Assembly (NCBI RefSeq): GCF_000520515.1
Contig: NZ_AZRY01000174.1
Location: 1 to 32,835 of the forward strand
DNA from: Arthrobacter sp. H20
Lineage (GTDB): Bacteria; Actinomycetota; Actinomycetes; Actinomycetales; Micrococcaceae
Direction: 5' to 3'
DNA: 32,835 nucleotides
Shown here: in pieces, positions 4,127 to 32,835 of the stretch
Numbering within the stretch: position 1 is the stretch's first letter
How the letters are laid out: every line of letters starts with the position of its first letter
Program-made: the position numbers and the translations under genes
Notes under the pieces: model-generated
Seen by the model: only the letters and a program-made list of their open reading frames with translations
The model's database searches: none
What the model was told of the DNA's origin: nothing

Positions 4127-5411
4127 GTGCCTGCTGTGGCGTACCCCGACGCTGCCACCATCGTTTTCAACCTGTCTGGCTACCAGGTCATTAGTGTCCG
4201 GATTTTGGCGCTGGACCAGCGCCGAATTCATGCCGAGTCGGTGTTGGAGGCTGGTTGCCGGGGCTGCGGGGTGATCAGCAGACGACGGCATTCCCGTCGC
4301 CTGCAGCGCATCCGTGATGTCCTTCTCGCGGGCCCGGTCGACGTCATGTGGGTCAGGTACAGGTTCTTCTGCGACGAGTCTGAATGCTCCAGGCAGACCT
4401 TCTCCGAGGCGACGCCGCAGGTCCCCGCGTTCTCCCACTCCACGGCTAGGCTGCGTCAGTCACTGGTTGATGCGGTGGTGGATTCGGACCGTGCAGCCGC
4501 GGAGACCGCGGTGGCTTTCGGGGTCTCGTGATGGCTGGTCCAGCGTGCTCTGGACGCTGCGGTATTGAAGCTACCCGATGTGGACACTCTGGCCCCGATG
4601 ATGCTGGGCATCGATGAGCACCGGTCCCGGTCCGTGCGCTTCTTCCAGGACCCGGAAACCAAGGCCTGGAAGCGGTTCGAGCCCTGGATGTCGACCATCG
4701 TGGATCTGGATACCGGGCAGGTCCTTGGCGTAGTCGATGGGAAGGACAGCACCGGTGTCGGGGACTGGCTGAAAGCCCGTCCGCTGCAGTGGCGGCTCGG
4801 CGTCCAGGTGGTCGCGATCGATCCGTCGGCGGCGTTTCGCAAGGCCTTGCGGATGTGGCTTCCCCGCACCGCTGTCAGCGTAGATGCGTTTCATCTGAGC
4901 ATGCTCGGCAATGCGATGGTGCCCGAGGTCCGTCAGCGTCTGACGCAGGAAGCCAAGGGCCGGCGGGGGGCGCGCCGTGGACCCGGTCTGGGCGAACCGG
5001 CGGCTGCTGCTCAAGGGTCAAGAGCGGCTCTCGGACCGGGCACGGAACCGGTTGGAGGTCGTCTTCGCCGTCGATGATCCCACCGGTCGGCTCCAGGGCG
5101 CCTGGGAGGTCAAGGAACAGCTCCGGACACTGCTGCGCACAGGCTGCCTCGAAGACGCCGCCGCGGCGAAGCAGGTCCTGCAGGAGCTGGTGGAACGAAC
5201 AGACCAGCCAGAAGCTCGCCGACTCTACCGCACCGTCTGCAGGTGGTGGGCCGAGATCGAGGGCCTCATCGTCACCGGTGCCACCACCGCGAAAATCGAA
5301 GCCAACAACACCGCGATCAAGAACATCAAACGCACCGGCCGCGGATTCGTCAACAACGCCAACTACCGCACCCGTATCATGTTGAGAAGCGCCGCCAGAA
5401 CAGCGGCCTGA
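4127..5411 (+). pseudogene. ISL3-family transposase, broken by nonsense and frameshift
   Basis: Reading through two lesions restores a normal ISL3 transposase of about 430 residues. The N-terminal zinc-binding part includes CRGCG and FFCDESEC. A TGA at 4529-4531 interrupts VAFGVS*WWLVQRAL, most simply a TGG-to-TGA change. The DDE core follows, with GIDEHRSRSVRFF (first Asp), VVAIDPSAAFRKAL (second Asp) and KIEANNTAIKNIKRTGRGF (Glu). The frame shifts near 4970 in the run CGGCGGGGGGCG, after QEAKGRRG, and resumes as DPVWANRRLLLKG. Both lesions should abolish the enzyme, so the element cannot move on its own. Confidence 0.88.
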
Positions 5412-5431
5412 ACATCCTCCCAGCAGGGGAA

Positions 5432-5454
5432 TTCACCACGAACCACGGAGAGCC
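5432..5454 (-). repeat. ISL3 right terminal inverted repeat
   Basis: 23 bp ending ACCACGAACCACGGAGAGCC, an exact reverse complement of 4071-4093. It marks the outer edge of the element 164 bp before poxB. Confidence 0.92.
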
Positions 5455-5618
5455 CCAGGGCCAGTGGGCGGTCTGGCGTAGTCCTCATTATGGCCCTTGC
5501 TGGAAAGCGCTCCGGCAGTTCTGGCCCGCCGCTGCGCCGGACTGCTTGGCATTCCCGGTAGCGGGTTTAAGCTGGAGGCGACTGATGCAAACACTCGATT
5601 CCTCCAGGAGGGTCCATC

Positions 5619-7367
5619 ATGGCCAAAGAACTTGCAACCCAGCTCATCGAGCAGCTTCAAGCCTCGGGAGTCAAGAGGATCTACGGGATTGTGGGTGACA
5701 GCCTTAATCCGTTGGTGGATGCAGTCCGCAGGACCGGCGGGTCGAGAAAGGGCGGAATCGACTGGATCCATGTCCGGCACGAGGAATCGGCCGCGTTTGC
5801 CGCCTCCGCCGACGCCCAGCTTTCCGGTGAACTTGCAGTCTGCGCCGGATCCTGTGGCCCGGGCAACCTTCACCTGATCAATGGTCTCTATGATGCCAAC
5901 CGCTCCGGGGCTCCCGTCCTGGCGATTGCCTCCCACATTCCGAGCAAGCAGATCGGCAGCGGCTTCTTCCAGGAAACCCACCCGGACCGGCTTTTCAACG
6001 AATGCTCCGTGTACTCCGAGCTGGTGAGCACCGCAGAGCAGGCACCTCGGGTGATGCACAGCGCCATCAGGCACGCGCTCGGCAAGCGGGGAGTCGCCGT
6101 CGTGACCCTTCCGGGCGACATCGCCAGCCTTGAGGCCAAAGCGCCGACGCCGTTGTGCGCTCCATTCATTCCCGCCACAGTGGTTCCGGCACCCGAAAGT
6201 GTGCAGCAGCTAGCGGACGCTATCAACGATGCCGACAAGATCGCCCTGTTTGCCGGCATCGGTGTGGAGGGTGCCCATGATGAGGTGGTGGCGCTCGCTG
6301 AGCACCTTGGCGCACCCGTGGGGCATTCGCTGCGGGGCAAGGATTTCATCCAATACAACAACCCGTATGACATCGGCATGACCGGGTTACTAGGGTACGG
6401 AGCGGCCGCGGAAGGCATCGAGGATGCCGATCTACTGATCCTGCTCGGCACCGACTTTCCCTACGACCAGTTCCTTCCGGATACGCGCACCGCACAGGTG
6501 GACCGGGCCGCGGAGAACCTGGGCCGGCGTACCGACGTCGACATTGCAGTGCACGGTGACGTTCTGCCCACACTCGCCGCGCTGATGCCGCTGATTAAGC
6601 GCAAGAAGAGCCGGCGGTTCCTGGACCAAATGCTCAAGAAGCACGACCACTTGATGAACAAGGCTGTGGGGGCATATACGCGTCGCGCCGACAGGATCAA
6701 ACCCATCCATCCGGAGTATGCGGCATCGCTGCTGGATCAGGTGGCCGCGAACGACGCCGTGTTCACGGCTGACACTGGAATGTGCAATGTGTGGACGGCG
6801 CGGTACATCAATCCGCTCGGAACTCGCAGGTTGATCGGCTCCTACCTGCATGGGTCCATGGCCAACGCGCTGCCGCAGGCTATTGGTGCGCAGTCGGCCT
6901 ACCCGGGACGGCAGGTCATTTCAGTGTCCGGCGACGGCGGGCTGTCCATGCTGATGGGTGAGTTGCTCACGGCGGTCGCGCACCAGTTGCCCGTGAAAGT
7001 TGTGGTGTTCAACAATGCGACTCTGGGAATGGTGAAGCTGGAAATGCTGGTGGAGGGGCTGCCGGACTACGGTGTGGACGTGCCCGAAACCAACTATGCA
7101 GCAATTGCCCGAGCCATGGGTTTCCATGCCGTGCGGATTGAGGATCCAAGGGAGATCGAGGGGGCGTACAGGGACGCCTTTGCGCATAAAGGGCCGTCCC
7201 TGGTAGAACTCGTCACCGATCCCAATGCACTTTCCATCCCGCCGAAGATTACCGGCGGACAGGTCATCGGGTTCGCGACCGCCATATCCAAAGTGGTACT
7301 GAACAAGGGTGCTGGAGAGGCAGTGAGCATGGCCCGGAGCAACCTGAGAAACATTCCCCGAGGGTAG
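5619..7367 (+). CDS. poxB: Pyruvate:quinone oxidoreductase (pyruvate oxidase) PoxB
   Basis: A 582-residue thiamine diphosphate and FAD enzyme that oxidises pyruvate to acetate and CO2 and passes electrons to membrane quinone. It closely follows the E. coli PoxB pattern: GIVGDSLNPLVDA at the N-terminus, the catalytic-Glu segment VRHEESAAFAA, then CAGSCGPGNLHLINGL and IGSGFFQETHP. The thiamine diphosphate motif GDGG is at 438-441, with FNN about 25 residues later. The C-terminal tail (AISKVVLNKGAGEAVSMARSNL) is equivalent to the lipid-binding tail of E. coli PoxB. The ATG is preceded by CAGGAGGG at 5605-5612. It lies alone between an ISL3 end and an iclR remnant. PoxB supplies acetate and quinol when PDH flux is limited, for example at low oxygen or in stationary phase. 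No frame lesion is visible. Confidence 0.93.
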   Translation: MAKELATQLIEQLQASGVKRIYGIVGDSLNPLVDAVRRTGGSRKGGIDWIHVRHEESAAFAASADAQLSGELAVCAGSCGPGNLHLINGLYDANRSGAPVLAIASHIPSKQIGSGFFQETHPDRLFNECSVYSELVSTAEQAPRVMHSAIRHALGKRGVAVVTLPGDIASLEAKAPTPLCAPFIPATVVPAPESVQQLADAINDADKIALFAGIGVEGAHDEVVALAEHLGAPVGHSLRGKDFIQYNNPYDIGMTGLLGYGAAAEGIEDADLLILLGTDFPYDQFLPDTRTAQVDRAAENLGRRTDVDIAVHGDVLPTLAALMPLIKRKKSRRFLDQMLKKHDHLMNKAVGAYTRRADRIKPIHPEYAASLLDQVAANDAVFTADTGMCNVWTARYINPLGTRRLIGSYLHGSMANALPQAIGAQSAYPGRQVISVSGDGGLSMLMGELLTAVAHQLPVKVVVFNNATLGMVKLEMLVEGLPDYGVDVPETNYAAIARAMGFHAVRIEDPREIEGAYRDAFAHKGPSLVELVTDPNALSIPPKITGGQVIGFATAISKVVLNKGAGEAVSMARSNLRNIPRG

Positions 7368-7401
7368 AGGACTGGTGGGTGACCCTCCGCCAGGTTCTGT
7401 C

Positions 7402-7722
7402 CTAGGGTCGACCACCAGTCAAGCTTCCATTGCCTCCGGCGACGATGCTGCGCTCGGTCGTGGAGGCAGCGGCCTGAAGTGCCGTTACATGCCGCGGGAT
7501 CATGGACTTATTGAACCAGGTGGTCGGTATGGCGGTAGTGAAGGCGGCGACCGGCTTTCCGTGCGCGTCGCGAATGCAGACGCCGAGTCCGCTGACTCCC
7601 TGCTCCGTCTCTTCTGTATTCGCACCGTAGCCCGCCTTACGCACGGCAGTCAGCCGCCTTTTGAGCGCCGGCAGCGCATGAATTCTTGCGGTGAGCCAGA
7701 GGGTCAGACCGCCCCGGTTGAC
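7402..7722 (-). pseudogene. IclR-family regulator, C-terminal effector-domain remnant
   Basis: The minus strand from 7722 to 7402 reads without interruption. It gives VNRGGLTLWLTARIHALPAL, then KRRLTAVRKAGYGANTEET, then EQGVSGLGVCIRDAHGKPVA. This is the second half of an IclR ligand-binding domain. The helix-turn-helix and first half are missing, because the frame ends exactly where the ISL3-type terminal sequence begins (7723). It is convergent with poxB, whose stop is 34 bases away. The complete gene may have regulated poxB or a neighbour now lost, but that is inference. Without the DNA-binding domain it cannot act as a regulator. Confidence 0.78.
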
Positions 7723-7760
7723 GGCTCTCCGTGGTTCGTGGTGAAACCCGGAGAGCCGTC
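7720..7760. repeat. Solitary ISL3 end inside a hairpin
   Basis: Bases 7723-7751 repeat the first 29 bases of the ISL3 element at 4071 exactly. They are followed by CGGAGAGCC (7749-7757), the outermost bases of the ISL3 right end. The whole forms an 11-bp stem, GACGGCTCTCC (7720-7730) with GGAGAGCCGTC (7750-7760). The simplest reading is an ISL3 copy reduced to its tips by internal deletion, or a one-ended remnant. It sits exactly at the truncation point of the iclR remnant. Confidence 0.75.
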
Positions 7761-7782
7761 ATAGACGCTGTTATCGGCGCAT

Positions 7783-9202
7783 TAGCCCCAATACCGTTTA
7801 CTTAGTGTTTTTTCTGTTAATCTTGGGGCATGGCGCGAAGTGGATGGATTAAGCCCGAAACCCCGGAACGGTTGAGTGATCATGTTTCGCTGGGTGTTTT
7901 GACGCGGACGTTCCCTCCGGATGTGGTGGACCGGGTGATCGCCCGGACCGGTGCGGGCCAGGCGCGGAACAGGCTGCTGCCGTCGCGGCTGATGGTCTAT
8001 TACGTGATGGCTATGGCGTTGTTCGCGGCGGGCTCGTATGAAGAGGTCATGCGTTCGCTGCTAGCGGGCATGGAGTGGATTACGGGCCGCTTCAAAGATT
8101 GGCAGATGCCAACGAAAGCCGCGATTTTCAAGGCGCGCACCCGGCTGGGCTCGACGGTAATGGCTGAACTTTTCGCGGAGGCAGCCAAGCCCCTCGCGGC
8201 GCCTGGAGGCAGCGGATTTTACAAGTCCTGGAGACTGGTCAGCGTTGACGGGACATGCCTGGACATTGCAGACACGCCAGCGAACGAGAAGTACTACGGA
8301 CGGCCAGGCACGGCCACCCTGATCAAGAGCGCGTACCCGCAGGCACGGGTACTCGGACTGGTCGAATGCGGGACACATGCGGTGATCGGGGCCGTAGTCG
8401 CCGGCTACGACACTGCCGAACAGGACATGTTTCCCGGGCTCCACGCGGACCTGGACGCCTCCATGCTGCTGATGGCCGACCGAGGGTTCTTCAGCTACCA
8501 CGCATGGAGGGACAGCGCAGCAACCGGTGCGGCACTGCTGTGGCGCATGAAGGCTAGCAACGTCCTGCCGGTGCTTGAGGAACTGCCCGACGGTTCGTAC
8601 CGCTCGGCGCTCTACGCCAACCCCAAGGCCCGTCGAAACAACACGGACGCAATCCCCGTCCGAGTGATTGAATACACCGTCACCAGCGGCGGGAACACCA
8701 GCAGTTTCCGCCTCATCACCACCGTCCTGGACCCGCGCGCAGCACCGGCACAGGACCTGGCAGAGCTCTACGGACGGCGCGGGGAAATCGAGTCCTGCTT
8801 CGACGAACTCAAAACCCACCAACGCGGCCCCGGAATCGTCCTGCGCTCCAAAACCCCCGACGGGGTCCTGCAGGAAATCTACGGCTACCTCTGCGTTCAT
8901 TACGCCCTGCGGTCCCTCATCGGCGAAGTCGCCCAATTGTTCGAAGAAGACCCCTTACGGTTTTCGTTCACACGCACTCTCCGGGCAGCACGGCGAACCC
9001 TCGCCGACCGCCCGGCTTTTTCCCCCTGACAAACTCCGGAAAGCCTTCGCCAGCTTCAGCGCAGAGATACTCCACGACCTCCTGCCGCCACGCCGACAAC
9101 GCAGCAACCCGCGCGTCGTCAAACGCAAAATGTCGGGCTGGCCACTAAAACGAATATCGAAACCGAGCATCCGAGTCGACTAAGTAAACGGTATTGGGGC
9201 TA
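7783..9202 (+). mobile_element. IS4-family insertion sequence
   Basis: A 1.4-kb element with perfect 23-bp inverted ends: TAGCCCCAATACCGTTTACT... at 7783-7805 and its reverse complement at 9180-9202. It contains one transposase gene with a late frameshift. The outermost base pairs of the repeat could be part of the target rather than the element. No clear longer target duplication is visible in the flanks. Intact, identical ends suggest a fairly recent arrival. Confidence 0.87.
7830..9183 (+). pseudogene. IS4-family DDE transposase with a late frameshift
   Basis: The main frame runs from ATG 7830 to TGA 9027-9029 (399 residues). The homologous C-terminus continues in the next frame as PPDKLRKAFASFSAEILHDL and ends KRISKPSIRVD at 9183, giving about 450 residues if restored. 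Catalytic segments are visible: SVDGTCLDIADTPAN (first Asp), LLMADRGFFSY (second Asp), and the IS4 YREK signature Y-x2-R-x3-E-x6-K in LYGRRGEIESCFDELK. The shift falls in GGCTTTTTCCCCCTGAC near 9015-9025, a homopolymer run, so it could be an indel mutation or an assembly error. The catalytic core is complete, so partial activity is possible. Confidence 0.88.
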
Positions 9203-9438
9203 GGACTGCCAGTCAGTGCCTGGCGGCGTTGACGAGGAAGGTCGGTGGTTGCGCCTGTGATGTCAATGCGGAATTTTCTGCCTACTCCTTTCATCCACAC
9301 CGTCGGACCGGATAGTTCTAAAGACCGCACTCCCAAGTACGGACCCAGATAACGTGGTCGGCCTGGGCGGGAATCACGAAACAGGCATCTTGGTATCGTT
9401 AGCCAACCTTCCAAACTTCCGCGGAAAAGAGAAACATT

Positions 9439-9771
9439 GTGAAAAAGGTGTCACTGACCGCGCTGATGCGCCACCAACTGGAAGCCGCACGGAGAGCCTC
9501 AAGCGGCCGCAGCGCCGATACAGTTTTCGGAGGCCACGAGCACGTCATGCGCCAGACAATGATCGCGTTGCGCGCCGGCAGCCACTTGAACGAACATGAA
9601 AATCCGGGCGAGGCGACGATCCATGTCCTGCAGGGCCGCGTATCGCTAACCGCTGGAAACAACTCCTGGAACGGTTCCCCCGGGGATTTACTCATAGTCC
9701 CCGACTCACGGCACGCATTGGAGGCCGTTGAGGATTCCGTTGTACTCCTTACCGTGGCCAAACACATGTGA
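9439..9771 (+). CDS. Small cupin-domain protein
   Basis: A 110-residue single-domain cupin beta-barrel starting at GTG 9439, after a purine-rich GGAAAAGAG stretch. The first cupin motif region is AGSHLNEHENPGEATIHVLQ followed by GRVSL. The second is GDLLIVPDSRHALEAVEDS. The His/Glu residues (HLNEHE and SRHALEAV) suggest a metal site, though the set is not fully canonical. The N-terminal helix LTALMRHQLEAARRASSGRSA is typical of a small actinobacterial cupin family of unknown substrate. It stands alone, 236 bp after the IS4 element and 320 bp before the CBS gene. Nothing regulatory stands out in 9203-9438. Confidence 0.8.
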   Translation: MKKVSLTALMRHQLEAARRASSGRSADTVFGGHEHVMRQTMIALRAGSHLNEHENPGEATIHVLQGRVSLTAGNNSWNGSPGDLLIVPDSRHALEAVEDSVVLLTVAKHM

Positions 9772-10091
9772 GAACAGTGGCGGTCCATCCTGAAGCGGCC
9801 ACGACCGTCCCGCACTGCGTAAGAGCGGCGTAAAGCAGTTTTACGTGCTTACCGGCGATAACCGGTACACGGCCCAACTCGTCGCTCATCAGCTCCGCAT
9901 TGATCACGCCGTGTCCGGATAGCGCGGAAACCGGCGGCAACCGACACGAAGGCCTCTGTCTGTAGGCAATCGGTACCCAAAGATGCCACCCGACCGACTC
10001 CATCTACCGTAGTTTGTGGATAGGCTGAGTTCAAGGAAGCCGGTAAAAGGGATTTGTCCTACTCCTGGCCGGACGAACCAGGAAGGTACCC
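9772..10091. other. Non-coding gap upstream of the CBS gene
   Basis: No gene is recognisable on either strand in these 320 bases. Two small inverted repeats can be seen: CGTAAA-gcagt-TTTACG near 9831-9847 and CTACCGTAG near 10004-10012. Either could belong to a promoter for the downstream CBS-pdh genes, but no convincing -35/-10 pair was found. Confidence 0.4.
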
Positions 10092-10580
10092 GTGATGGAA
10101 GCGAAGCTGGCAACCAAAGCCGCAGATATTATGAGCACACCGGTTTTCACTGCCTCACCGAATACTCTGGTTGAAGAAATTGCCGCCGTGCTTGGTCGGC
10201 ACCGCATCAGCTCTGTCCCCGTCGTTGATGGCGGTGAGCACGTAGTGGGTTTAGTCAGCGAATATGACTTGCTTGCCAAGTCTGGTTCTACTGCCGCCGA
10301 GGTGATGAGTACCGCCGTGATCAGTGTGAGCATTGATACCGCCATCGCTGATATCCGGCGCATGTTGATCGACCAGCGGCTCCGGCACCTACCCGTACTG
10401 CAGGATGGCCGCCTGGCCGGAATCGTAAGCCGCAGGGATATCGTGGCGCTTTTGGCCACCGAATGGGTCTGCGGTGTTTGCGGCGAGCCCACCCGCGGAG
10501 AGCATCCACCCGGTAGTTGCCCCAAGTGTGCCGCCACCGGAGACCGGTTCACTCTTCAGGAACAGCCTCCGGGTCCCTGA
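10092..10580 (+). CDS. CBS-domain pair protein with C-terminal rubredoxin-like zinc ribbon
   Basis: 162 residues from GTG 10092; the ATG at 10095 is equally placed, and AGGAAGG lies at 10080-10086. The first CBS motif spans about 8-62 (ADIMSTPVFTASPNTLVEEI) and the second about 68-120 (AAEVMSTAVISVSIDTAIAD). CBS pairs bind adenine nucleotides such as AMP, ATP, NAD or SAM and act as energy sensors. A four-cysteine ribbon follows, with Cys127/Cys130 (WVCGVCGEP) and Cys143/Cys146 (GSCPKCAATGDRF), spaced like a rubrerythrin-type metal site. The gene ends 70 bp before pdhA on the same strand, suggesting linked expression with PDH. The bound nucleotide and metal are unknown. Confidence 0.85.
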   Translation: MMEAKLATKAADIMSTPVFTASPNTLVEEIAAVLGRHRISSVPVVDGGEHVVGLVSEYDLLAKSGSTAAEVMSTAVISVSIDTAIADIRRMLIDQRLRHLPVLQDGRLAGIVSRRDIVALLATEWVCGVCGEPTRGEHPPGSCPKCAATGDRFTLQEQPPGP

Positions 10581-10650
10581 GCGTCCGGCACTGGCCACAG
10601 GTCGTATCCGGGGCGGAGCCGAAGGCAATTAATCAGATGGAGGCGCAATA

Positions 10651-11736
10651 GTGGTTGAAAAGACAGAAGTTACCATGGACAGCGGAGAGGGCACTGGCCC
10701 CGTTCCGGCTAAAGAACCGGCTGAGGTCCTGCTCGGTTATTACCGGGACATGGTGTTGATCAGATCCTTTGAACTCACGGCGGTGGAGATGTACAAGCGC
10801 GCCAAGATCGGCGGGTACTGTCACCTCAACCTCGGCGAGGAAGCCACCGTCGTCGGACTGACCGCCGCGCTACACAAGCGTGACTACCTCTTTACCACCT
10901 ACCGTGACCATGGCTACGCGCTCTCACGTGGCATGGCGCCGGGCCAGGTGATGGCCGAACTGTTCGGCAAAACGACCGGGGTGGCCAAGGGCCGCGGCGG
11001 ATCCATGCACATGTTCGACACCGAAACCCGCATGCTCGGCGGGTACGGGATCGTCGGTGGTCAAATACCGCCAGCCACCGGCGCGGCCTTGGCCCTTACC
11101 TACCGGGGAGAACCCGGACCGGACGCGGAAGCGGTGATGTGCCAGCTCGGCGACGGCACCACCAACATCGGGGCCTTCCACGAGTCGCTAAACATGGCCG
11201 CCATCTGGGACCTACCAATCGTGTACGTGATTGTAAACAACCGCCTGGGGATGGGAACGACGGTGGAGGCAGCCTCGGGCGAACCTGAGCTCTACAGGCG
11301 CGGTGCCTCCTACCGGATACCTGGTGAGCGGGTGGATGGCAATGATGTGCTCGCCGTCCGCGAAGCCGCCGCCGCCGCCATGGAACGCGCGCGCGCCCAA
11401 CGCCAGCCGGGCCTGCTGGAGGTTATGAGCTACCGCCTGAAAGGACACTCAGTGGTCGATCCGGCCCGCTATCGGTCCAGTGAGGACAATGAGCGGGCCC
11501 GGGAGGCCGATCCGATACCAGCTCTGCGGGGAAGCCTGCTGCAAGCCGGAATCATCGACGAAGAACACGCTACGGAGATTGAGCGGGAGGCCGACGAGCA
11601 GGTGAGCGCCGCGGTCGCGTTCGCTGATTCCAGCCCGGACCCTGCCCCCGGTGAGCTTTTCGACTATGCGTATGCCACGCCGGTTGCGAACGCCCCGCAT
11701 ACCTTGCCCGGCGATCCAGTAGTGGAGATGCCATGA
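10651..11736 (+). CDS. pdhA: Pyruvate dehydrogenase E1 component, alpha subunit
   Basis: 361 residues from GTG 10651, with ATGGAGGCG at 10637-10645 as the ribosome site; the ATG at 10675 is an alternative. E1 alpha/beta decarboxylates a 2-oxo acid on thiamine diphosphate and reductively acetylates the E2 lipoyl group. The thiamine diphosphate motif is GDG at 167-169 with NN at 196-197. GRGGSMHMFD and YGIVGGQIPPATGAALA are typical of pyruvate-type E1 alpha, as is the phosphorylation-loop region SYRLKGHSVVDPARYRS. An acetoin or branched-chain substrate is less likely but not excluded. The stop overlaps the downstream reading frame (ATGA at 11733). Confidence 0.92.
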   Translation: MVEKTEVTMDSGEGTGPVPAKEPAEVLLGYYRDMVLIRSFELTAVEMYKRAKIGGYCHLNLGEEATVVGLTAALHKRDYLFTTYRDHGYALSRGMAPGQVMAELFGKTTGVAKGRGGSMHMFDTETRMLGGYGIVGGQIPPATGAALALTYRGEPGPDAEAVMCQLGDGTTNIGAFHESLNMAAIWDLPIVYVIVNNRLGMGTTVEAASGEPELYRRGASYRIPGERVDGNDVLAVREAAAAAMERARAQRQPGLLEVMSYRLKGHSVVDPARYRSSEDNERAREADPIPALRGSLLQAGIIDEEHATEIEREADEQVSAAVAFADSSPDPAPGELFDYAYATPVANAPHTLPGDPVVEMP

Positions 11737-11753
11737 CCAGCGGAGGACACCAG

Positions 11754-12746
11754 ATGCCCGTCATCACCTACCGGCAGGCTTTGAACGATACGCTGCGCGC
11801 CGAGCTAACCCGCGACGAGAGCGTCTTCCTCATCGGCGAGGAAATCGGTATTTTCGAAGGTTCCTACAAGATCACCGCCGGACTGCTCGCCGAATTTGGG
11901 CCCACCCGGGTCCGGGACACTCCGATTTCCGAAGAGGGTTTCGTTGGGGCGGCCATCGGCGCGGCGATGCTGGGGATGCGACCTGTCGTTGAAATCATGA
12001 CGATCAACTTCAGCCTGATAGCCATCGACCAAATCGTTAACCATGCAGCTAAAATCTACGGAATGTTCGGCGGTCAGACCGCCGTCCCCATGGTGCTTCG
12101 TATGCCTGGAGGTGGTGGGCAGCAGCTGGCCGCCACCCACTCGCAGAACCTGGAAGTCTGGTATGCCCATGTGCCGGGTTTGAAGGTCGTTGCCCCCGCC
12201 ACTCCGGCTGATGCGAAGGCGCTCCTTACCGCGGCCATCCGCGACGACGATCCGGTGATCTTCTTGGAGAACCTGTCCCTGTACAACACCAAGGGCGAAG
12301 TTCCCGAGGGCGAACAGATCGCCGAAATAGGGAAAGCCGCCGTGACCAAAGAAGGCACGGACGTGACCGTGATTGCCTACTCGAGGGCCAGTGTGATCGC
12401 CCTCGAAGTTGCCCGGCAACTAGAGGATGACGGGGTTTCCGTTGAGGTGGTCGACCTGCGCAGCCTGCGTCCGCTGGACCGGCACACGATCTGTGCCTCG
12501 GTTCGTAAAACCAGCCGTGCTGTGATTCTTGAAGATGACTGGCTCAGTTACGGCATCGGCGCGGAAATCTCCGCAACCCTGATGGAAGGCGCTTTTGACT
12601 ATCTCGATGCCCCGGTCCGTCGGGTGGCGGCCGCCGAAGTACCGCTCCCCTACGCCAAACCACTCGAGTCAGCCGCGCTGCCCGACGCCAATGACTTGAT
12701 TAAGGTCATCCGCGAGTTGCTCGAGGCCACCAGTTTCACCCGATAG
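11754..12746 (+). CDS. pdhB: Pyruvate dehydrogenase E1 component, beta subunit
   Basis: 330 residues from ATG 11754. This start was chosen because CGGAGGAC lies 7 bases upstream and homology begins at MPVITYRQALNDTLRAEL. The in-frame ATG at 11733 would add seven residues and overlap the pdhA stop. It pairs with E1 alpha to form the thiamine diphosphate active sites. Recognisable segments are GEEIGIFEGSYKITAGLL, RVRDTPISEEGFVGAAIGAA, EIMTINFSLIAIDQIVNHAA and the C-terminal EVVDLRSLRPLDRHTI. The family's normal length is about 325-340. It lies between E1 alpha and E2 in one transcription unit. Confidence 0.92.
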   Translation: MPVITYRQALNDTLRAELTRDESVFLIGEEIGIFEGSYKITAGLLAEFGPTRVRDTPISEEGFVGAAIGAAMLGMRPVVEIMTINFSLIAIDQIVNHAAKIYGMFGGQTAVPMVLRMPGGGGQQLAATHSQNLEVWYAHVPGLKVVAPATPADAKALLTAAIRDDDPVIFLENLSLYNTKGEVPEGEQIAEIGKAAVTKEGTDVTVIAYSRASVIALEVARQLEDDGVSVEVVDLRSLRPLDRHTICASVRKTSRAVILEDDWLSYGIGAEISATLMEGAFDYLDAPVRRVAAAEVPLPYAKPLESAALPDANDLIKVIRELLEATSFTR

Positions 12747-14591: not shown

Positions 14592-14608
14592 TTCTACAGC
14601 CTGTAGAA
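14592..14608. promoter_or_regulatory. 17-bp palindrome TTCTAC-N5-GTAGAA upstream of the haemoglobin gene
   Basis: TTCTACAGCCTGTAGAA lies 8 bases before the preferred ATG (14617) of the truncated haemoglobin gene. A TATATA stretch (14558-14563) upstream could be the -10 box, putting the palindrome in the 5' leader where a repressor could block transcription. The same TTCTAC-N5-GTAGAA pattern occurs once more at 27568-27584. The binding protein is unknown. Confidence 0.5.
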
Positions 14609-14616
14609 TAGACGAT

Positions 14617-15099
14617 ATGGAGAAGATATTACCTGATATCTGCAACCGCGAGGATATTCACCTGTTGGTCAGCGAATTCTACCGACGGGCCCTCATGGAT
14701 CAACTCCTGGGACCAGTCTTCATCGACGTCGCGCACATGGACCTTGAGAAGCACATGCCGATCATGTGTGACTTCTGGGAAACCGTGCTCTTACGAGCCG
14801 GACTGTACCGGCGCAGCGCGATGCAACATCACCTCGATCTCCATGCAAAGGCACCGCTGGGAGCCGAGCACTTTGACCGGTGGCTCGCTATCTGGACGAC
14901 AAACATCGACGAACACTATGCGGGAGAGAAAGCGGAGCTTGCCAAAGTACAGGCTGGCCGGATCGCCCAATCCATCCACCGCCGTCTGCAGGGGCGCTCG
15001 GGGAGCGGCTTCGAAACAATTGCCGCCCGTAAGACAACTGTGCCTGGTGGCGACGCCCCAACAAATGGCACTATTCTGACAACAGTCTCGACCGTCTGA
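14617..15099 (+). CDS. Group III truncated haemoglobin
   Basis: 160 residues from ATG 14617; an upstream in-frame ATG at 14587 would place the 17-bp palindrome inside the gene, so the later start is preferred. The globin domain spans about 1-130. FWETVLLRAGLYRRSAMQHH and LHAKAPLGAEHFDRWLAIW are the signature of group III truncated globins, with the proximal haem His in the LHAK/AEHFDRW region. The C-terminal 30 residues (Thr/Gly-rich) are a low-complexity tail. These proteins bind O2 and NO and are linked to NO detoxification in some bacteria; the role here is inferred. It is divergent from the membrane protein gene and followed by the AhpD-like gene. Confidence 0.87.
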   Translation: MEKILPDICNREDIHLLVSEFYRRALMDQLLGPVFIDVAHMDLEKHMPIMCDFWETVLLRAGLYRRSAMQHHLDLHAKAPLGAEHFDRWLAIWTTNIDEHYAGEKAELAKVQAGRIAQSIHRRLQGRSGSGFETIAARKTTVPGGDAPTNGTILTTVSTV

Positions 15100-26350: not shown

Positions 26351-26469
26351 TCGTTCCCCCTGCTGCGCCAGCGCCGGCATGTGTCGCCGTTTGCACGCCT
26401 AAAGGAGCCCACCCGCGGAGCAGCGATCCGGAGGAGGCATCGTAAGGTTCGACGATCCGCATCATCCTA

Positions 26470-26606: not shown

Positions 26607-27359
26607 ATGATAGTGCAGGAACGACGCCGGATCCCTCTGACGGAACGCTCTGCTGCACCGCACGTTTGTCCCCGCCCGGTGCGTCTTGAAGCACTGGAAC
26701 GCATGCCCCTGTTCGCAGCGCTGACCGCGACGGAAATCATTGATATTGAGCCGAGGATGCAGGCGCACGGCTACCATGCCGGGGAGTTGATTTACCGTTT
26801 CGGTGAAAATGCGACCAGTCTGTTCGTTCTGGCCTCTGGCACCGCGAAGCTGCATCGGCCCTCTGCTCACGGTCAAGATGTCGTGACGAACATTCTCGGA
26901 CCGGGCGAGAGTTTCGGGACACTGGGGATTTTGGGAGAGCCAACATATGCGGACAGCGCCGAAGCCATGGCCGTCTCGTGTGCCTTGAAGATATCAGCCA
27001 GTGTTTTTAGAGATGTCATGGACCGACATCCGCGTCTGGCACTGACTGTCCTGGATGAGGTTCTTCATCGCTTTGAACAAGCCCAGCAAACAATCCGGAG
27101 TCTGTCCGCCGACAACGTCCAACAACGCATCGCTTCCGCCCTCCTGACCTTGGCTGACAAGCTTGGCGACCCAAAGGGTGAAACAATCGGTTTGGAGTTT
27201 CCCCTGACACGTGCCGATCTGGCTGCCATGACGGGAATGACTCCCGAAACGGTCAGCAGGGTGATAAGCCGGCTTCGTGAAGACGGCATTGTCGACACCG
27301 GGCGACGCTGGACAGCCATTCTTGACCGCCCGCGGCTGGAAGCGGTAGCCCAGGGATGA
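26607..27359 (+). CDS. Crp/Fnr-family transcription regulator
   Basis: About 250 residues from ATG 26607; the frame is open from GTG 26526, and the start is uncertain because no good ribosome site is visible. The N-terminal cyclic-nucleotide-binding-like barrel contains YHAGELIYRFGENATSLFVL and ILGPGESFGTLGIL. The long dimer helix is DEVLHRFEQAQQTIRSLSAD. The C-terminal helix-turn-helix is LTRADLAAMTGMTPETVSRV. Its recognition helix has E-x2-S-R, the FNR pattern that reads TTGAT half-sites. The cysteine cluster of oxygen-sensing FNR is absent; only HVCPRP holds a Cys near the N-terminus, so any O2 or NO sensing would differ. A site matching FNR specificity is found at 28483-28502. Confidence 0.88.
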   Translation: MIVQERRRIPLTERSAAPHVCPRPVRLEALERMPLFAALTATEIIDIEPRMQAHGYHAGELIYRFGENATSLFVLASGTAKLHRPSAHGQDVVTNILGPGESFGTLGILGEPTYADSAEAMAVSCALKISASVFRDVMDRHPRLALTVLDEVLHRFEQAQQTIRSLSADNVQQRIASALLTLADKLGDPKGETIGLEFPLTRADLAAMTGMTPETVSRVISRLREDGIVDTGRRWTAILDRPRLEAVAQG

Positions 27360-27538: not shown

Positions 27539-28354
27539 TCAGGCACCGAACCTGGTAGAGGTAATTTTTCTACCGACGGTAGAACGGGAGGTATAGCCGT
27601 AGGTTCCCTGTTCGAGTAGCTCCCGCGCGGCATCGAATGCTGCTCCGAAGGCCGCAAACGCGAATGCGCCACCAACCGATATCCGGCTGACGCCGACGGA
27701 GCTTAACTCTGAGACGTCCGGTATGCCCGCCATCGCGAGCACGTTGACTGGGCGGTCCACCGACGCCACCACGGATCGGATGTCCTCTAACCGGGTGAGG
27801 CCAGGCGCATAAAGTACATCTGCGCCAGCCTCCTGGTAGGCCTGAAGGCGGCGGATCGTGTCGGCCAAATCGGGCCGGCCGTGGAGGAAGTTCTCGGCAC
27901 GGCCGGTCAGTACGAGCGGCGCCGGCCCCCGGTGAAAAGCTTCAGCGGCGGCGCGCACCCGCTCAGCGGCGAGGTCGAGTCCGTAGATGGGAGAGCCCGC
28001 GTCCCCGGTAAAGTCCTCAATCGACGCGCCCGCCAAGCCCGTCCGTGCCGCAAGCTTGAACGTTTCAGCCACGCCAGTGGGATCATCGGCGAATCCACTC
28101 TCCAGGTCGGCATTGACGGGTAGATCCGTCGCTTTCACGAGCTCCGCCGCGTGCTCGAGGGCCTCGTCGCGCGTCAGCTGACCATCGAGACGGCCCAAGG
28201 ACGCGGCATGTCCACTGCTGGTTGTGGCAAGTGCACGGAACCCCATTGAGGCGAATAGCCGCGCCGAACCGATACTCCAGGCATTGGCGAGAAGCAAAGG
28301 TGTAGGACCGTGATGAAGAGCGAGAAACCGGGCAGCAAGGTCTATGGGAGCCAT
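27539..28354 (-). CDS. PEP-mutase/isocitrate-lyase-superfamily protein
   Basis: 271 residues from ATG 28354. It is a TIM-barrel of the PEP mutase/2-methylisocitrate lyase superfamily, which makes or breaks P-C or C-C bonds next to a carboxylate using Mg2+. PTPLLLANAWSIGSARLFAS is the first strand, NADLESGF (Asp83, Glu85) and SIEDF (Glu113, Asp114) supply metal ligands, and TGRAENFLHG precedes the active-site loop. The KKCGH motif of isocitrate lyases is absent, so the reaction cannot be stated. It is divergent from the molybdoenzyme gene. A partly deleted relative is at 22483-22800. Confidence 0.85.
   Translation of the reverse strand: MAPIDLAARFLALHHGPTPLLLANAWSIGSARLFASMGFRALATTSSGHAASLGRLDGQLTRDEALEHAAELVKATDLPVNADLESGFADDPTGVAETFKLAARTGLAGASIEDFTGDAGSPIYGLDLAAERVRAAAEAFHRGPAPLVLTGRAENFLHGRPDLADTIRRLQAYQEAGADVLYAPGLTRLEDIRSVVASVDRPVNVLAMAGIPDVSELSSVGVSRISVGGAFAFAAFGAAFDAARELLEQGTYGYTSRSTVGRKITSTRFGA
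27568..27584. promoter_or_regulatory. Second TTCTAC-N5-GTAGAA palindrome
   Basis: TTCTACCGACGGTAGAA is a perfect 17-bp palindrome with the same outer six bases and five-base centre as the one at 14592-14608. It lies inside the last codons of the PEP-mutase-like gene, between convergent 3' ends, so a promoter role is not obvious. Confidence 0.35.
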
Positions 28355-28475
28355 TTTATTAGACTACATCTGCGTCACAGGCTGCACATTGGGGTCCATT
28401 CGAGGTCAGGTAGGACGCCAGGCAGGCCGGTGATCCGTTGCCCGCACACGCATGCCGCCCTGGCGACGCTATATA

Positions 28476-28534
28476 TTGATCAAGTATGATTCAGATCATA
28501 CTCCAGCAGCATATGGGCGCGTAAACTGTGAAAG
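28476..28534 (+). promoter_or_regulatory. FNR-type site and promoter for the molybdoenzyme-acn genes
   Basis: AGTATGATTCAGATCATACT (28483-28502) is a perfect palindrome (8+4+8). It contains TGAT-N4-ATCA, the core of the FNR consensus TTGAT-N4-ATCAA (8 of 10 positions match). An extra half-site, TTGATCAA, lies at 28476-28483. TAAACT at 28522-28527 fits a -10 box. If position 28527 is -7, transcription starts at 28534 and the palindrome is centred at -41.5, the standard position for class II activation by FNR or CRP. No good -35 box is present, as expected for an activated promoter. The divergent PEP-mutase-like gene could share the site. Confidence 0.65.
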
Positions 28535-28588
28535 CTATCAATCCTGAAAGATCGGGATAGCAGCCCGGGGCATCGGCGAAGGAACAAC

Positions 28589-32835
<4,247 letters not shown>

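Follow-up and report, generated by a model that had tools for sequence, protein, structure and literature searches.

Locus and features

The window, meaning the whole 32,835-nucleotide stretch of Arthrobacter sp. H20 analysed here (contig NZ_AZRY01000174.1), contains an island-like block at 5619-32538, situated among several transposase genes and carrying genes for PDH E1/E2, SdhCAB, a P-type ATPase, a NarK-like transporter, a Crp/Fnr regulator, a molybdoenzyme and an aconitase, with what we take to be a PoxB-like gene as well, some of the gene names in the block being presumptive. The NarK-like transporter, whose match lies below the family cut-off, adjoins the regulator gene, and a PEP-mutase-type gene on the opposite strand lies between the regulator and the molybdoenzyme. 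The 234-bp gap 5' of the molybdoenzyme gene holds the inverted repeat considered here.

26452-26465: degenerate related site ACGATCCGCATCAT, between the narK-like gene and crp
26607-27359, plus strand: Crp/Fnr-family regulator, 250 aa, proposed activator (Pfam, clade alignment, cysteine count)
28483-28502: inverted repeat AGTATGAT-TCAG-ATCATACT, centre 28492.5 (read from the sequence)
28487-28498: conserved core TGAT-N4-ATCA, unchanged in Arthrobacter sp. H5
28522-28527, plus strand: -10-like hexamer TAAACT (TAGATT in H5), first base 29.5 bp from the site centre
28534, plus strand: predicted transcription start, from the hexamer and class II geometry
28579-28583, plus strand: likely ribosome-binding site AAGGA (read from the sequence)
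28589-30388, plus strand: cytochrome b-molybdopterin fusion protein (sulfite-oxidase/MsrP-type; Pfam), proposed target
30415-32538, plus strand: AcnA-type aconitase, probably co-transcribed, 26 bp downstream of the molybdoenzyme

The molybdoenzyme matches Pfam Oxidored_molyb (1.8e-31, residues 437-575) and, weakly and below its cut-off, Ni_hydr_CYTB; no NCBIfam model reaches its cut-off on this protein, the MsrP model also staying below its own. The aconitase is cut short at 32538, with 707 aa vs 930 aa in H5.

The regulator and its family

The protein encoded at 26607-27359 belongs to the Crp/Fnr superfamily, with Pfam matches to cNMP_binding (PF00027, 2.1e-17) and HTH_Crp_2 (PF13545, 3e-21). 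In the clade alignment its recognition helix reads MTPETVSR, so that the E-x2-S-R motif which the earlier note had reported for this protein is indeed present, as E214-T-V-S217-R218. Aligned with FNR, the regulator lacks the four [4Fe-4S]-ligating cysteines and has only C21 and C125, the latter aligning two residues off the last cysteine of FNR. Both cysteines are kept in 11 of 12 aligned sequences, that of the window included, and the protein of genome G082 has neither. The best sequence match in the PDB is DNR (3dkw, E 1e-21).

Searches with a profile of eight relatives found this regulator in 25 of 396 genomes of the order, its own included (we take the order to be Micrococcales, from the named loci), and in 3 of 394 genomes sampled from the class; these three again belong to that order. 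The genome of the window encodes six Crp/Fnr homologues in all, the regulator itself among them.

Regulator and site do not fit a CRP/GlxR regulon, for which Arg at CRP position 180 and TGTGA-N6-TCACA are expected: Pro213 precedes E214, and the site reads TATGA-N6-TCATA. Pro213 is taken here to occupy CRP position 180, and Glu214 position 181, on a presumed placement of the CRP helix. These residues agree with the rule that Rodionov et al. 2005 give for T over G in the half-site, the accessible part of that paper associating the G in CRP half-sites with R180 (PMC1274295).

The candidate operator and promoter

The repeat consists of two perfect 8-bp arms around a 4-bp spacer, TCAG. It had been described earlier as a 20-bp perfect palindrome, which is correct for the arms; the spacer is not self-complementary, and the perfection is unique to the window copy. 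With the start assumed at 28534, 12 bp after the first T of TAAACT, the centre of the site falls at -41.5, so both the coordinates and the arithmetic of that earlier observation hold. Eight of ten positions match the FNR box TTGAT-N4-ATCAA, and a second FNR-like stretch, TATATATTGATCAA (two mismatches), lies just 5' of the repeat at 28470-28483. A search of 28300-28700 for sigma-70-type promoters gave none, which would be expected of an activator-dependent promoter, although this is weak evidence with only 0.5 expected in shuffles. Autoregulation was also considered and rejected for the window, because the narK-crp region offers only the degenerate site at 26452, with no TANNNT at +29.5 in either direction.

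Judged on the window itself, the site is only modestly beyond chance and constitutes weak evidence. Perfect repeats with arms of at least 8 and spacers of 0-12 number 10 in the window vs 7.15 expected, and those with a spacer of 4 number 1 vs 0.575; in Markov copies of the 234-bp intergenic region a spacer-4 repeat arises with P = 0.0055 and one of any spacer with P = 0.0445. When up to two mismatches are allowed, TTGAT-N4-ATCAA is found at 17 places in the window, where 7.26 are expected; TGAT-N4-ATCA is found at four (0.28 expected), three of them inside ORFs. Across the 3.44-Mb genome the exact GTATGAT-N4-ATCATAC is found once, and the core WTGAYN4RTCAW 57 times, which rules out the core alone as a genome-wide regulon finder. 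The pattern TGAYN4RTCA-N23-TANNNT has a single match in the genome, namely the reported site. The earlier note had named many equally good sites in coding sequence as a finding that would speak against the site; such sites exist for the bare core and not for the core combined with the spacing. The case therefore had to rest on comparison.

Recurrence of site and spacing beside the regulator

TGAY-N4-RTCA lies 5' of 17 of 32 regulators, against a mean of 0.44 and a maximum of 3 in Markov copies, and a spacer-8 count of 12/32 represents the same stretches read with a neighbouring ATCA. When tetramer inverted repeats 5' of the regulators are ranked, TGAC-N4-GTCA (12/32) comes second to the G+C-rich GGGC-N7 (13/32). 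Of the 26 TGAY-N4-RTCA sites that were oriented, 20 have a TANNNT hexamer whose first base lies precisely 29.5 bp from the centre, the other 75 offsets having a mean of 0.05 and a maximum of 1; the count is 18/24 once the window and H5 are left out, and 10/16 after removal of look-alikes. It has to be noted that the 26 sites were picked by site and position, the hexamer having been claimed beforehand only for that of the window, that two extra upstream matches (L181 and L193) were omitted, and that two of the 26 (L007 and L145) lie inside over-extended ORF calls. Six sites lack the hexamer at +29.5. Three of them, in Glaciibacter (read in the molybdoenzyme direction) and in Citricoccus and G089 (both read towards crp), carry it in the opposite direction; the others are the site of the Brevibacterium molybdoenzyme and those in L189 and L193. 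The fixed distance from site to -10 that characterizes class II promoters is found here and in most of the sites of the relatives, at +29.5 bp, the start itself being predicted.

Of the 27 genomes then known to bear the regulator, 22 were searched for the bipartite pattern TGAYNNNNRTCA-N23-TANNNT. It matched at 36 places, and 26 of these are no more than 9 kb from the regulator gene; such a nearby match occurs in 20 of the 22 genomes, the exceptions being G082 and G223. Six of the ten distant matches (two each in G217 and G223, one each in G368 and G082) lie on another contig, in front of an HMA or P1B-ATPase gene; of the other four, two were retrieved. For the other five regulator-bearing genomes the fetched loci contain a match within 1.5 kb in G377, G435, G420 and G274 and none near the regulator in G267. 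As a control, 24 related genomes free of the regulator (89.7 Mb from rounded sizes; best Crp homologue about 30% identical or less) yielded 23 scattered matches, none of which is followed by an HMA or P1B-ATPase gene within 900 bp. The pattern read backwards matched twice in the regulator-bearing set and 11 times in the regulator-free set. Since the chance rate is about one match per genome, it is the position of the matches that counts and not their number; at the rate of the regulator-free genomes, about 0.008 matches are expected in the window and 0.00006 in the intergenic region.

Site, spacing and regulator type, which the earlier note had judged separately and found to agree, recur together in the relatives, in 20 of 26 sites and 20 of 22 genomes. 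The designation of the site and regulator as FNR-type stands for the geometry and the helix and requires correction in two respects: the clade motif, as read from these sequences, is ATGAY-N4-RTCATG, not TTGAT-N4-ATCAA, and the regulator has two cysteines, not four.

Candidate target genes and their distribution

The regulator adjoins a molybdoenzyme or aconitase gene in six loci (L001, which is that of Arthrobacter sp. H5, and L007, L008, L014, L047 and L146). L146, which belongs to G082, carries at 4812-12504 a Crp/Fnr relative (46-48%) 5' of acnA (83%) and sdhCAB (64-77%), and no TGAY-N4-RTCA-type site lies beside this relative in the 14-kb stretch of the acnA-sdhCAB locus. In L146 the regulator family is accompanied by the same TCA genes, minus the usual cysteines and operator. 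The bipartite match of G082 is elsewhere (L223), before HMA/ATPase genes.

Seen from the enzyme, TGAY-N4-RTCA is present at most 300 bp 5' of 6 of 51 molybdoenzyme homologues (Markov mean 0.85, largest 5). The regulator is encoded in 8 of the 39 searched molybdoenzyme genomes (42 loci given), which rules it out as the general regulator of the enzyme. In Brevibacterium a similar site precedes the enzyme, but it has no hexamer at the +29.5 position, and the regulator was not found in that genome at E 1e-45.

The usual motif of P1B-type ATPases is CPC; the ATPase of the proposed regulon at L014 2301-4409 has, read by eye, GCPGALVIS in its place.

Closest promoters and divergence of the window copy

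In Arthrobacter sp. H5 the corresponding region differs from the window at 8 of 254 bases (about 97% identity) and so does not count as independent evidence. In its molybdoenzyme promoter TGAT-N4-ATCA is intact, as are the TA and the final T of the hexamer; GT instead of AC after ATCAT breaks the outer palindrome. In the 400 bp 5' of the 51 molybdoenzyme homologues, only H5 comes near the palindrome (12 of 14 letters), the rest reaching at most 10, and the perfect palindrome was discarded as a functional feature, being broken in H5 and not conserved. The differences between window and H5 include 28500, 28501, 28524 and 28526, of which 28500 and 28524 are conserved in the sub-group with the helix ETVSR. 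A second H5 match, 7.8 kb from the regulator, precedes a presumably DoxX-like gene (without a family hit), followed by ferredoxin, HMA and partial ATPase genes. Together with the NarK-like neighbour, the HMA, ATPase and ferredoxin genes of the relatives make oxygen, nitrogen oxides, thiol redox or metal the candidates for the signal sensed by the regulator.

A Citricoccus MAG encodes a regulator that is 71% identical and a molybdoenzyme that is 84% identical in the portion which its contig covers. Its site at L046:4342 reads ATGATCGAGATCATG, with TAGGCT at +29.5, and lies between a leftward gene starting at 4204, which we take to be cupin-like, and a small ORF at 4432, the molybdoenzyme following at 4756. 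Longer overlapping ORFs cover this site, so that the mechanical call places it inside one, and gene starts there are uncertain. The Citricoccus site on the crp side has its hexamer only in the direction away from crp, with the target at the contig end.

All four distinct sub-group sites outside the window read ATGAT-N4-ATCATG, whereas 20 of the 22 promoters of other relatives have GTCA as the right half. The helix is ETVSR in the sub-group and ESVSR for 19 of those 22 promoters, the pattern missing three. This offers a suggestion, from few sites, that the helix letter may be paired with the operator letters.

A 41-bp profile was trained on 22 other promoters with the Citricoccus matches held out; the 22 comprise six further promoters and 16 regulator-near matches. 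The latter come from the 23 such matches that lie neither in the genome of the window (G000) nor in G029, after near-identical copies had been dropped (one from G288, two each from G368, G433 and G308). The window site scores -4.3 on this profile (training minimum 30.0, median 39.3), the H5 molybdoenzyme promoter 6.6 and the H5 DoxX-like promoter 27.8. Among 1,385,690 control positions, 721 score at least as high as the window site, and the best control, at 10.3, lies above the H5 molybdoenzyme promoter, so the profile fails as a detector of the window site. The window copy has no G after RTCAT, a letter present in 24 of 26 regulator-near matches, and its hexamer is without the third-position G of the sub-group -10. 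This copy may be less effective than that of H5, or may be decaying along with the truncated aconitase.

A separate family of repeats

A second repeat, TTCTAC-N5-GTAGAA, occurs in the window at 14592-14608 and 27568-27584 and elsewhere in the same genome (loci L149-L154, L156, L158, L159 and L162). Eight exact copies are present in the genome vs about 0.07 expected from base composition; with up to two mismatches there are 65 vs 136 in the reversed control, so the relaxed form is not enriched. Exact copies lie by a gene of the penicillinase-repressor (BlaI) family, whose neighbour is presumably BlaR-like, and by genes for flavohemoglobin, HemQ, QcrC/CtaE and a rhodopsin; that in L151 has no clear target, and that at 27568 is within the end of the PEP-mutase ORF. 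One-mismatch copies lie by heme o synthase, CtaG and a presumably AtpI-like gene without a Pfam hit. One site is directly 5' of 14617-15096, which we take to encode a group III truncated hemoglobin-like protein (no Pfam hit at 1e-5). The set looks like a BlaI-type respiratory regulon.

Interpretation

The recurrence in relatives of the site, its spacing to the -10 hexamer and the nearby regulator supports reading the site as an activator promoter. We consider with good confidence that the neighbouring Crp/Fnr regulator uses it as a class II activator promoter, start and activation both being predicted; the most likely arrangement is that a class II site of the two-cysteine regulator drives the molybdoenzyme together with the truncated aconitase. 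In the model proposed here, a dimer of the regulator would bind over the -35 region through the helix P-E-T-V-S-R and contact RNA polymerase, which would switch on the molybdoenzyme gene and the adjoining truncated aconitase. A redox, oxygen or nitrogen-oxide signal, perhaps received through the two conserved cysteines, would control this, and is the least certain step of the model.

The alternative that survives best, and that we still regard as unlikely, retains the same regulator and has it act on a repressor operator, or has the window copy persist as a decaying remnant. The operon behind this copy has lost the end of the aconitase, the copy departs from H5 at the four positions named above, two of them conserved in the sub-group, and its profile score is low; however, the copy retains the TGAT-N4-ATCA core as well as the TA and the final T of the hexamer, and a 29.5-bp spacing fixed across the clade fits activation, not repression. 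It is very improbable that a different Crp-type protein, such as a CRP/GlxR-like global regulator, binds the site, even though the genome holds further Crp/Fnr homologues and TATGA-N6-TCATA matches what we take to be the CRP box at 8 of 10 positions, because the sites cluster at the regulator locus or before HMA/ATPase genes and not genome-wide. For a reading of the CRP type, moreover, the regulator has Pro at the position presumed to be that of R180. In the accessible part of the published analysis (PMC1274295), R180 is associated with the G of the CRP half-site. An equally slight chance is left to a fortuitous A+T-rich inverted repeat upstream of a gene, for 8-bp arms are not rare in the window and the bipartite pattern arises about once per genome, yet hardly any match is expected in this intergenic region, and the arrangement is seen again upstream of the Citricoccus operon and, in nearly all genomes searched, next to the regulator.

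Taking the activator-promoter reading further, the observations can be joined, tentatively and with somewhat less than even confidence, into a single picture, in which a Crp/Fnr sub-family, encountered here in a single order and recognizable by P-H-x-C-P and by another cysteine within [TS]CxL, would serve as a two-cysteine redox or metal switch, and not as an iron-sulfur FNR, for a small class II regulon. This regulon would comprise a CopZ-like HMA protein with a P1B-type ATPase, the DoxX-like gene and the island-borne cytochrome b-molybdoenzyme with aconitase, and the DNA preference might have shifted from TGAY-N4-GTCA (ESVSR) to TGAT-N4-ATCA (ETVSR) with one helix change. No earlier description of the regulon or of the helix-operator pairing was found in listings of open-licence papers.

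A palindrome picked out by eye has thereby become a testable regulon, with operator, spacing, regulator and candidate targets across some two dozen related genomes. An activator common to a metal ATPase, ferredoxin and aconitase neighbourhood would give a first lead on when the molybdoenzyme is used, and the pairs ESVSR/TGAY-GTCA and ETVSR/TGAT-ATCA may constitute a small natural experiment in the evolution of recognition helices.

Comparison with known systems

Class II promoters of E. coli FNR have TTGAT-N4-ATCAA centred at -41.5. The present system shares with them the 5-N4-5 geometry, the E-x2-S-R helix and the -41.5 placement relative to the -10, and differs in that the outer base is A and the inner T or C, and in that the regulator lacks the four cluster cysteines.

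DNR, the Crp/Fnr activator of Pseudomonas that responds to NO by way of heme, has the motif CTTGATnnnnATCAAG in the accessible part of PMC1274295. Its helix P-E-T-F-S-R resembles the P-E-T-V-S-R found here, and it gives the best PDB match noted above, but it is only distantly related, the likeness being one of sequence. No denitrification gene was found among the targets seen here, a NarK-like transporter merely lying nearby.

For HcpR the same part of PMC1274295 reports the motif TTGACnnnnGTCAA, and for HcpR1 of delta-proteobacteria and cyanobacteria wyTTGACnnnnGTCAArw. The TGAC-N4-GTCA core of HcpR1 is the commonest form in the regulator clade, and both proteins have a residue other than Arg at 180 and Glu at 181; however, HcpR1 occurs in other phyla and has other targets (hcp and frdX).

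FLP of Lactobacillus casei is a two-cysteine FNR-like protein that switches through a reversible disulfide linking the two. It is mentioned in the accessible part of PMC5039431. Like the regulator described here, FLP has one cysteine near the N-terminus and one in the beta-roll, with positions that are only roughly comparable.
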